Origin: Paracoccaceae bacterium
Lineage (GTDB): Bacteria > Pseudomonadota > Alphaproteobacteria > Rhodobacterales > Rhodobacteraceae
Length of the DNA: 37,875 nucleotides
Assembly (NCBI GenBank): GCA_029248915.1
Contig: JAQWIK010000094.1
Location: 1-37,875 of the forward strand
Reading direction: 5' to 3'
The position numbers and the translations under genes are program-made. The notes under the pieces were generated by a model. It did not search any database and was not told where the DNA came from. It saw only the letters and a list, made by a program, of their open reading frames with translations. Position 1 is the first letter of the stretch. Each line of letters opens with the position of its first letter. Positions 24,270-28,400 of this stretch are shown here, in pieces.

Positions 24270-24788
24270 ATGAATTTATTTAAAAAAAACAATCACATTC
24301 GATATCTAGTTATTACATTCTTTTTTGTATCTTTTATCTTTTTATTTCTGCCAAAGAATGCTTTTGGAACTGAAAATTGTAAACACTATACCACTATCGT
24401 TTTAGAGAATAGGTTTGACGAGAGCCAAAGATTAGTCGTTCAAGCTGAAGTGGCCGACGAGCCAGATGAAAGAGCGCTAGGCCTGATGAACCGAAAAAAA
24501 ATAGCCAAAAATAAAGGTATGTTGTTTGTTTATAATAACCCAAGTGCTCCACAATTTTGGATGAAGAATACATTTATTTCGTTGGATATTCTTTTCACTG
24601 ATTATACTGGTCAAATAATTCAGATCTTTGAAAATGTACCAAAAATGAGTGAAAAAAAAATAACTGCTGGCGACGGTGTATCATTTGTTTTGGAAATTAA
24701 TAGTGGGATTGTGGAGAAATTTAAAATTGACTTAAACTGGACCTTAAATTTTTCTGATTTTTTTAAATCGTTAAAACCTTTTTGTTGA
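24270..24788 (+). CDS. DUF192 family exported protein
   Basis: This 172-residue protein has an N-terminal hydrophobic signal or anchor at about residues 10-29 (IRYLVITFFFVSFIFLFL) and a DUF192 domain after it. The domain is marked by VEVADEPDERALGLMNRK-like VADEPDERALGLMNRKKIA, GMLFVY and FWMKNTFISLDILF, with VLEINSG near the end. The family's biochemical function is not established. The signal suggests it works in the periplasm. It lies between pdxH and tRNA-Pro. The C-terminal 20 residues are less conserved in character. Confidence 0.88.
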   Translation: MNLFKKNNHIRYLVITFFFVSFIFLFLPKNAFGTENCKHYTTIVLENRFDESQRLVVQAEVADEPDERALGLMNRKKIAKNKGMLFVYNNPSAPQFWMKNTFISLDILFTDYTGQIIQIFENVPKMSEKKITAGDGVSFVLEINSGIVEKFKIDLNWTLNFSDFFKSLKPFC

Positions 24789-24862: not shown

Positions 24863-24939
24863 CGGGGCGTAGCGCAGCCTGGTAGCGCACCTGTTTTGGG
24901 TACAGGGGGTCGCAAGTTCGAATCTTGCCGTCCCGACCA
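24863..24939 (+). tRNA. tRNA-Pro (anticodon TGG)
   Basis: A full cloverleaf can be drawn. The acceptor arms CGGGGCG and CGTCCCG pair with one G-T pair, and the D-stem is GCGC/GCGC. The anticodon stem CCTGT/ACAGG carries the loop TTTGGGT, hence anticodon TGG. The T-arm is GCAAG-TTCGAAT-CTTGC, and the discriminator A is followed by encoded CCA. It is 77 nt long including CCA. Confidence 0.97.
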
Positions 24940-25283
24940 TGATCAATCTAAAAACGCATATTCTTCCTTCAAAGAAATCCAAATAGATTCTTTCAAACCT
25001 TAACTCTCGAAAGATATGATTATGTTTCTTTTGGTCAAAATTGGTATCATTCGTCTAGGTTTTTTTTAAAAAAGCAAATTTATTTATTTCCTAAACTTGA
25101 CTGATTCACACAGGAGAAATTCTTGTTCTCAGAATTAATAAATTTTGCTAAGCGATCTAAATATAAAGAAAATTTATTTTATTCTGTTCACACCTTTTGA
25201 ACATAATTTTTTTCACATAGCTTAAAAAAAACAGTTGAATTCGAGGTCAAGTAAAAAACATTAAATTTTTTAAAAAAAAACAT
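24940..25283 (+). other. AT-rich intergenic region between tRNA-Pro and the nrdJ leader
   Basis: This 344-nt stretch holds no gene I can support. It contains A/T runs, a TTGACT at 25097-25102 without a matching -10, and a 25-codon frame from a TTG at 25123 to a TGA at 25198-25200, preceded by AGGAG (25112-25116). The promoter for nrdJ must lie here or just downstream, but no -35/-10 pair is convincing; TTGAAT at 25235-25240 is a candidate -35. Confidence 0.4.
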
Positions 25284-25464
25284 TGACCATCACCACAAAA
25301 ATACGCCAAGTTGTGCAAGCTAGGGGCGAAACCACAACATGTAGTGGTGGAGCGGTCATTTCTCGAAAGAACATCAAAACGATGTCAACAGCTGGTTGGG
25401 TAACCAAAACCTTTACCGGGAAGGCCACTCTTTCAAAAAAACCCCTTAAAAATTTTGTATGGGG
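25284..25464 (+). promoter_or_regulatory. candidate structured 5' leader RNA of nrdJ
   Basis: The leader can fold into a nested long stem: TGACC 25284-25288 with GGTCA 25354-25358, CACCAC 25291-25296 with GTGGTG 25344-25349, and inside it GTTGTG 25310-25315 with CACAAC 25333-25338. CGCC 25304-25307 can pair with GGCG 25325-25328 in the inner loop, forming a pseudoknot. Smaller hairpins follow: TTCT/AGAA around 25360-25371, CATC/GATG 25372-25384, and TGGTT/AACCA 25393-25406. A CCCC/GGGG hairpin (25442-25445 with 25461-25464) buries the nrdJ ribosome binding site. The conserved core of a standard cobalamin riboswitch was not recognised. Folding was done by eye. Confidence 0.55.
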
Positions 25465-25472
25465 CAAAAAAA

Positions 25473-28400
25473 ATGAAGATCAAAAGAAGTTTTACAAAAG
25501 CAGGCCAGGACGCTTACTCAGGGATAAATTTTATAACAACTACGTCCGAGATCAGAAACCCTGACGGTACGATTGTATTTAAATTAGAAAACGTTGAAGT
25601 TCCGGAAAGTTGGTCACAGGTTGCGAGTGACGTTATCGCTCAGAAGTACTTTAGAAAGGCAGGAGTGCCGACTGAAGTGAAAAAAATAAAAGAAAAAGAC
25701 GTTCCAAAATTTTTGTGGAAATCAACTAAATCCTCGGTAGATACAGCTTTCGCTGGGGAAAATTCATCGAAACAAGTTTTTGATCGCCTAGCTGGAGCAT
25801 GGGCCTATTGGGGATGGAAAGGGGGCTACTTTACGGATGTAGAAGACGCCCAGGCATATTTTGACGAAATGCGTTACATGCTAGCGTCACAAATGGCTGC
25901 CCCAAACAGTCCACAATGGTTTAACACTGGCCTACATTGGGCATACGGAATAGATGGTCCAGGGCAGGGACACCATTACGTCGATTATAAAACCAAAAAA
26001 TTGGTAAAGTCAGCATCAGCATATGAACACCCTCAACCACACGCTTGCTTTATCCAATCTGTTAGTGATGACCTGGTAAATGAAGGTGGAATAATGGATT
26101 TATGGGTGCGAGAAGCTCGTTTGTTCAAATATGGGTCAGGGACAGGGACGAATTTTAGTTCCTTGAGAGGCAATGGAGAAAGCTTGTCTGGTGGCGGCGC
26201 TTCGTCCGGTCTGATGGGTTTTTTAAAAATTGGGGATCGAGCAGCCGGTGCAATTAAATCTGGTGGGACAACCCGTCGAGCGGCAAAAATGGTTATATGC
26301 GATGCTGACCATCCCGACATTGAAGAATTTATAAATTGGAAAGTAAAGGAAGAACAGAAAGTCGCAAGCATAGTTGCTGGCTCAAAGGTTCACGAGCAGC
26401 GATTGAATGCGATTTTCACAGCTATACGGCAATGGGATGGAAGTACTGAGGATGCTGTGGATCCAGTAAAAAATATGTCCCTAAAATCGGCGATAAGAGA
26501 CGCAAAGAGGGTCTCTATTCCTGAGACCTATGTCAAAAGAGTGTTGGATTATGCAAGACAAGGGTATGCTAGTATAGAATTTCCGACATATGATACGGAT
26601 TGGGACTCGGAGGCCTATGCATCAGTGTCTGGGCAAAATTCAAATAACTCGATAAGGGTCAAAGATTCCTTCTTAAAGGCTGTAGAGAACGACGACGATT
26701 GGGAATTAATCCGACGGACAGATGGTTCAGTTGCAAAGACGATTAAAGCCCGTAAATTATGGGCGGACGTTGGACATGCCGCGTGGGCTTGTGCTGACCC
26801 TGGAATTCAATTTCATGATACTGTGAATGCCTGGCATACTTGCCCAGAAGATGGTGAAATACGAGGTTCAAACCCATGTTCTGAATATATGTTTTTAGAT
26901 GACACAGCATGCAACTTGGCGTCGATGAATTTATTGACTTTTCTTGTCGACGGGAAGTTTGATTCAGAAAACTACATACACGCTACTAAACTGTGGACGC
27001 TAACATTAGAGATTTCCGTTCTAATGGCACAATTTCCATCAAAAGAAATAGCTCAAAGATCTTATGATTTTCGGACCTTGGGACTAGGCTATGCTAATAT
27101 TGGGGGTCTTCTGATGAATATGGGATTCAGTTATGATAGTCAGGAAGGTAGAGCTTTGTGCGGTGCGTTAACTGCGATTATGACAGGAACGTCATACGCA
27201 ACGTCAGCAGAGATAGCGAGCGAGGTTGGAGCTTTTCCAGGCTATGAAAAGAATGCAAAGCATATGCAGCGCGTCATACGCAACCATCAGAACGCTGCTC
27301 ATGGTAAAACAGAAGGATATGAAGAACTTTCTGTTAAACCTGTACCCCTCGATCACAAAAGTTGTCCCGACAAAGATTTGGTTGAGCTTTCAATGAAATG
27401 CTGGGACGACGCTCGAGAGTTAGGTGAAAAATTTGGTTTTAGAAATGCCCAAGTTTCAGTGGTAGCACCAACAGGCACCATTGGTTTAGTTATGGACTGC
27501 GATACAACTGGGATTGAGCCTGACTTTGCTCTAGTAAAGTTTAAAAAACTTGCTGGTGGAGGTTACTTCAAAATTATTAATAGGTCGGTTCCCGGCGCAT
27601 TGGAAAAGCTTGGCTATGGTTCTGCCCAAATTGAGGAAATTATTTCTTACGCTGTGGGACACGGCACTATTGGCAATGCACCAGTGATAAATCATACGAG
27701 TTTAGCTGGCCACGGCTTTAGTAAGGTTGAGTTGGATAAAGTAGAGGGTGCACTCGCATCAGCTTTTGATATCCGATTTGTGTTTAACCAATGGACTCTG
27801 GGAGCAGAATTTTGCATGGACGTCCTTGGGATACCAGAGTTAAAATTAAATGATCCTACGTTTGACTTGCTTAAGCATTTAGGATTCAGCAAATCGGATA
27901 TTGACGCCGCTAATGACCACGTTTGTGGAACCATGACTTTAGAAGGTTCACCCCATTTAAAAGAAGAACACCTAAATATATTTGACTGTGCTAATCCTTG
28001 CGGAAAGAAAGGAAAACGGTACCTTTCTGTAAATAGTCATATTTACATGATGGCTGCTGCTCAGTCTTTTATCTCTGGCGCGATATCAAAAACAATAAAC
28101 ATGCCTAACGACGCTACAATCGAAGATTGTCAAAAAGCATATGAATTGAGTTGGTCCCTGGGAACTAAGGCTAATGCTCTATACAGAGACGGTTCTAAAC
28201 TTTCACAACCGCTTGCTGCGGCCTTAGTTGACGATGACGATGATGCTGCTGAGATTCTTGAAACCGGCACAAATCAAGAGAAAGCTACGGTCTTAGCTGA
28301 AAAAATTGTTGAAAAAATTGTAGTTAAAGAAGTAGCCAAAGCTCGGGAGAGAATGCCGGAGAGGCGGAAGGGCTATACTCAAAAAGCAGTAGTTGGTGGT

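Follow-up and report, generated by a model that had tools for sequence, protein, structure and literature searches.

A predicted NrdR operator and a probable structured leader upstream of the class II ribonucleotide reductase gene nrdJ in a marine Rhodobacteraceae genome

The region upstream of nrdJ in a genome of a marine Rhodobacteraceae genus was found to hold, very probably, an NrdR-controlled nrdJ promoter and, downstream of it, a 5′ leader that is transcribed and structured. Judged from the sequence, the repeats at the 5′ end of this region are mostly the NrdR operator of nrdJ, which makes them a new instance of a known transcriptional control. What is left over after NrdR is a family-wide structured nrdJ leader without an Rfam model, testable in cultivated strains such as Ruegeria. 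The window, i.e., the whole stretch of DNA that was analysed, is 37,875 nt long, and the features discussed below are the following:

25270..25280, + strand: A-tract 5′ of the -35 hexamer, which may function as an UP element
25283..25288, + strand: -35-like hexamer TTGACC, containing the outer repeat arm TGACC
25301..25316, + strand: NrdR box 1, ATACGCCAAGTTGTGC, degenerate, with the C at position 4 and the G at position 13 kept
25332..25347, + strand: NrdR box 2, CCACAACATGTAGTGG, the top PWM site of the window
25349..25431, + strand: leader stem P1 with its interior, GGAGCGGTC (25349-25357) pairing with GGCCACTCT (25423-25431)
25371..25385, + strand: hairpin P2, ACATC-AAAAC-GATGT, 5 pairs kept in 4/4 genomes
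25392..25419, + strand: hairpin P3, CTGGTTGGGT...ACCGG, 9 pairs, 1/36 cells broken
25442..25464, + strand: hairpin P4, CCCC/GGGG, occupying the GGGG beside the start codon
25473..29105, + strand: nrdJ, class II adenosylcobalamin-dependent ribonucleotide reductase, 1210 aa

Profile searches confirmed the identity of nrdJ (NCBIfam PRK07562.1, 2176.9 bits; Pfam PF02867, PF08471, and PF12637). The initial annotation had described a leader richer in G+C than its AT-rich surroundings, and this was found to be correct: 25284-25464 has a G+C content of 45%, which exceeds the 25% of 24950-25283 and the 38% of the window as a whole.

The operator evidence is concentrated in 25283-25347, which contains the -35-like TTGACC and a pair of NrdR boxes at a spacing of exactly 31 bp. 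The contact bases are C25304 and G25313 in box 1 and C25335 and G25344 in box 2; the C and G of each pair are 9 apart, and the contact bases of the two boxes are mutually 31 bp apart. The features by which a site is counted among the NrdR operators were all found: a pair of palindromic boxes separated by about three helical turns, C/G contacts and an nrdR gene in the same genome. The nrdR gene scored over cut-off (TIGR00244) in 11/16 genus genomes including the genome of the window, where it is located on contig C103 and nrdJ on contig C94. The box 2 palindrome (consensus CCACAACATGTAGTGG) was present in 134/138 nrdJ upstream regions from the genus and the family, compared to 2% of Markov sequences. 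For this first set, upstream regions were taken from 10 genomes of the genus and, among the 144 further nrdJ-bearing genomes of the family, from 129, one region being dropped. Training of the box 2 PWM drew on this set, and independence holds for the second set only. In that second set, obtained from 80 named loci by removal of 11 duplicates, box 2 was found in 69/69 loci. The exact box 2 sequence CACWAYATRTAGTG occurs only once in the 2.02-Mb genome to which the window belongs.

When scored with the model made for box 2, box 1 was weak, with -7.5 bits and a rank of 187. With a box 1 PWM built from family members, genus excluded, the window site ranked 1st of 37860 positions, and the box pair scored 43.3 bits compared to 11.5 bits for the runner-up in the window. 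Both box 1 contact bases were found exactly at -31 in 85/132 regions (next best offset, 32/132) and in 47/69 loci of the second set. An anchored profile of 134 upstream regions showed TTGACC at a fixed distance from box 2 (-49 to -44) and a kept A-run at -59 to -54. A simple sigma-70 scan detected no full promoter and no recognisable -10 hexamer. Among 394 family genomes, the sole DNA match beyond the genus spans just 25283-25346. Transcription of nrdJ would start near 25319.

Rodionov and Gelfand reportedly described paired boxes in 2005 as common to NrdR regulons in general. In Streptomyces coelicolor, NrdR contacts GC pairs 9/18 in box 1 and 40/49 in box 2, which are 31 bp apart, and its binding requires dATP and ATP (PMC9110341). 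In Pseudomonas aeruginosa, nrdJ is repressed by NrdR, and the boxes were confirmed to be functional by means of mutated-box plasmids (PMC4409342). The boxes of S. coelicolor nrdRJ and P. aeruginosa nrdJab resemble the present ones in being paired palindromes with C-9-G contacts and 31 bp spacing, which overlap the promoter region and have a class II reductase gene downstream (PMC9110341, PMC4409342). Unlike in those systems, box 1 is degenerate here and nrdR is on another contig than nrdJ. When dATP is plentiful, an NrdR tetramer would be expected to bind both boxes, which are separated by three helical turns and located 3′ of the -35 element and 5′ of the leader start, and nrdJ transcription would be blocked. 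The operator is called on sequence and conservation, and repression is proposed by analogy with the NrdR systems that have been studied.

The same repeats had been read in the initial annotation as arms of a multi-part RNA stem with a possible pseudoknot in a leader of about 180 nt. All four arm pairs were located: TGACC (25284-25288) with GGTCA (25354-25358), CACCAC (25291-25296) with GTGGTG (25344-25349), GTTGTG (25310-25315) with CACAAC (25333-25338), and CGCC (25304-25307) with GGCG (25325-25328). The 75-nt stretch holding them does form the described fold (-22.4 kcal/mol); compared to dinucleotide shuffles its z was -1.6, with 14/200 equally good, and for the whole 231-nt region z was -1.05, with 29/200 equally good. 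That this long stem with its CGCC/GGCG pseudoknot is a functional RNA is highly improbable. Every pair forms in the window sequence and most form in the three closest relatives, but in the other half of the genus (6 genomes) 0/5 pairs of the outer stem and only 2-3/6 pairs of the CACCAC stem are kept. Covariation over 10 genus genomes did not exceed the shuffle level either, the proposed stem being paired at 73.3% compared to 72.7% for shuffled columns. The arms were located and the RNA stem was lost in relatives, and we rejected it in favour of half-sites of two NrdR boxes plus a -35 hexamer: TGACC sits within the -35 element, box 1 has GTTGTG as its right half and box 2 has CACAAC as its left half, and GGTC fits better as an arm of P1. 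Since the -35 element at 25283-25288 puts the probable start near 25319, the 5′ arms TGACC and CACCAC fall inside the promoter and would be absent from the RNA, and the leader length of about 180 nt is probably wrong. The repeats thus belong to a known repressor system and are not worth pursuing as a pseudoknotted riboswitch.

A probable transcribed leader is located at 25348-25472, and its fold is a different one: P1 is a long-range stem, two hairpins lie inside it and a further hairpin is formed at the ribosome site. The transcript from about 25319 may fold with P1 enclosing P2 and P3, and with P4 over the ribosome-binding site, which P4 would sequester. Within the window subclade (4 genomes), 99% of 104 cells in P1-P4 were paired, with eight one-sided variable pairs and one break; every cell of P1 was paired, one pair of P2 varied from A-U to G-U, and at P3 the single-sequence MFE of the window departed from the 4-genome structure. 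The shuffle control has no power for this 4-genome structure, and single-sequence folding of the window leader alone gave z = -1.5. Among the six genomes of the sister subclade, two hairpins were 95.6% paired, three pairs had changed on both sides, and covariation was 0.244 compared to 0.193 +/- 0.029 (14/500 shuffles). The leader interiors differ between these two subclades of the genus. No intrinsic terminator or attenuator was found, and this reading was rejected. A conserved upstream reading frame was rejected, as short frames vary between genomes (judged by eye only).

Family leaders 3′ of box 2 are about 180 nt long, and the family tests were made on leaders of 100-245 nt, i.e., 119/124 boxed leaders with the genus excluded and 64/69 leaders of the second set. 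Three motifs were found at preferred relative positions in the 119 leaders: AGGGAC near 0.1 (39/119 compared to 9.0 expected), TGTCCT near 0.54 (10/119 compared to 1.0 expected), and GGGGCAG near 0.93 (47/119 compared to 7.7 expected). AGGGAC and TGTCCT belong to complementary arms, and both motifs also exceeded shuffles among the leaders of the second set (33% compared to 6%, and 41% compared to 14%). In 183 leaders, pairing between the 5′ 45 nt and the mid-leader of the same sequence exceeded that obtained with GC-matched swaps (p = 1.2e-5), and this long-range pairing occupies the position that P1 has in the window. Control sequences showed no such excess in the same swap test, whether taken from upstream (n = 166, p = 0.46) or from coding regions (n = 64, p = 0.42). 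Because own pairing exceeds that of the swaps and the controls show no such excess, selection on leader structure is supported at the level of the Rhodobacteraceae. When P1 arms were aligned by motif alone, no excess pairing was detected. The region about 8-15 nt before ATG, at the ribosome site, is unusually uniform in the family (GGGGCAG or GAGGCAG), and in many family species this motif sits between GCTG and CAGC.

Further analysis of one genus, probably Ruegeria, gave a four-way structure of 27 pairs in 53 of 54 leaders (one 43-nt leader was left out), with 89.9% pairing and a covariation of 0.201 compared to 0.165 +/- 0.006 (0/500 shuffles). The default consensus fold of the same alignment was weaker, with 14 pairs. 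With our own phylogeny-aware null, modelled after R-scape, 0/27 pairs reached E < 0.05 in the 53 leaders, a test of low power given how little their arms vary. A search with the Ruegeria covariance model (R1) of 198 other sources, in sets of 98 and 100 without L153-L163, gave no nrdJ leader at significance. Neither did a search of 42 sources with filters off, and this model was rejected as a detector of distant homologues. Therefore, the window leader is related to that of Ruegeria by its place and P1 only. On comparison with relatives, the conservation expected of a structured RNA was found as pairing at family level; the interior between genera and the per-pair test in Ruegeria gave no such support. 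The proposal of a structured nrdJ RNA outside Rfam is supported for 25348-25472 and not for the stretch and fold first described.

Whether the leader is instead an unstructured spacer with chance folds, the operator alone being of importance, was weighed against these data and considered unlikely. Such a spacer would agree with the unremarkable single-sequence folding, with the negative phylogeny-aware test in Ruegeria and with the lack of covariation between motif-aligned arms, but it does not account for own pairing above that of GC-matched swaps in 183 leaders with negative upstream and coding controls, for complementary motifs holding fixed relative positions or for the compensatory changes that the sister subclade shows. 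We consider the structured leader a genuine, if modest, lead that the family-level data support but that individual pairs do not prove.

The initial annotation had also raised a cofactor- or nucleotide-sensing riboswitch while not recognising a cobalamin core. The latter was borne out: RF00174 gave no match in 25150-25520 at E up to 10, and no Rfam family matched the leader. At the gathering threshold, Rfam 15 detected only a tRNA in the window, and in 25150-25520 three sub-threshold matches at E up to 10 were all on the opposite strand. A search of relatives' loci (20 and 12) gave a tmRNA end at the edge of locus L104 and one chance match, both below the gathering score. The RF00174 model does work in the genus, as cobalamin riboswitches were detected over cut-off in 9/16 genus genomes; in 6/6 of those nine genomes where nrdJ was also found, the riboswitch and nrdJ were on different contigs. 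Over cut-off examples were present in sister genomes (L169-L172), and none was found in the genome of the window. The nrdJ leader thus resembles a cobalamin riboswitch in preceding a gene for an adenosylcobalamin-using product and differs in lacking a match to RF00174. The SAM/SAH riboswitch RF01727, a leader RNA restricted to Rhodobacterales, is a comparable case of an order-restricted leader in the same group (PMC2864571), although it precedes another gene and the nrdJ leader has no Rfam match.

The use of adenosylcobalamin by the target enzyme, the structured leader outside Rfam, the multi-hairpin fold closed by P1 both in the window lineage and in Ruegeria, and the hairpin over GGGG near the start codon would fit an undescribed riboswitch that acts through P4 on the translation of nrdJ, with adenosylcobalamin, dATP or another nucleotide as its ligand. 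We nevertheless regard such a switch as quite improbable: no sequence core common to genera was found (Ruegeria model, 198 sources, and 42 with filters off), interiors differ even among subclades of one genus, and a switching scheme that replaces P1 by pairing between mid-leader and ribosome site was rejected, both in the family (own-versus-swapped sharing, p = 0.92; pairing, p = 0.76) and in Ruegeria (p = 0.36 and p = 0.87, respectively). The ligand-sensing idea was accordingly not supported for want of a deeply conserved core between genera, and a ligand-sensing riboswitch at nrdJ is unlikely because the interior is unconserved between genera and no pair was significant in the one-genus phylogeny-aware test.

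The structured leader most likely acts as a stability or translation element: its structure may tune the stability or translation of nrdJ mRNA rather than sense a ligand. A more specific proposal can be made tentatively, and we hold it to be possible rather than probable, namely an undescribed, fast-evolving Rhodobacteraceae nrdJ leader with P1 (GGCAGGGACAGA / UGUCUUUGCC), inner hairpins and a GGGGCAG ribosome site, forming a post-transcriptional layer below NrdR that sets the amount of reductase and possibly responds to a cofactor or nucleotide. In literature searched by title and opening abstract, in which subscription papers are thinly covered, no such nrdJ leader was described. If the leader is regulatory, an RNA layer would be added to the control of ribonucleotide reductase in abundant marine bacteria.

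Besides nrdJ, a second class II reductase gene (about 754 aa; TIGR02504, 596.6 bits) was found in the same genome on contig C96 (433-2727); this contig showed no NrdR box at up to 1 mismatch. Upstream of the nrdJ region, the window contains a tRNA gene at 24863-24936 (Rfam RF00005) with the anticodon TGG (Pro), as judged by eye, and a gene for a DUF192 protein at 24270-24788, which is flanked by pdxH and the tRNA gene.
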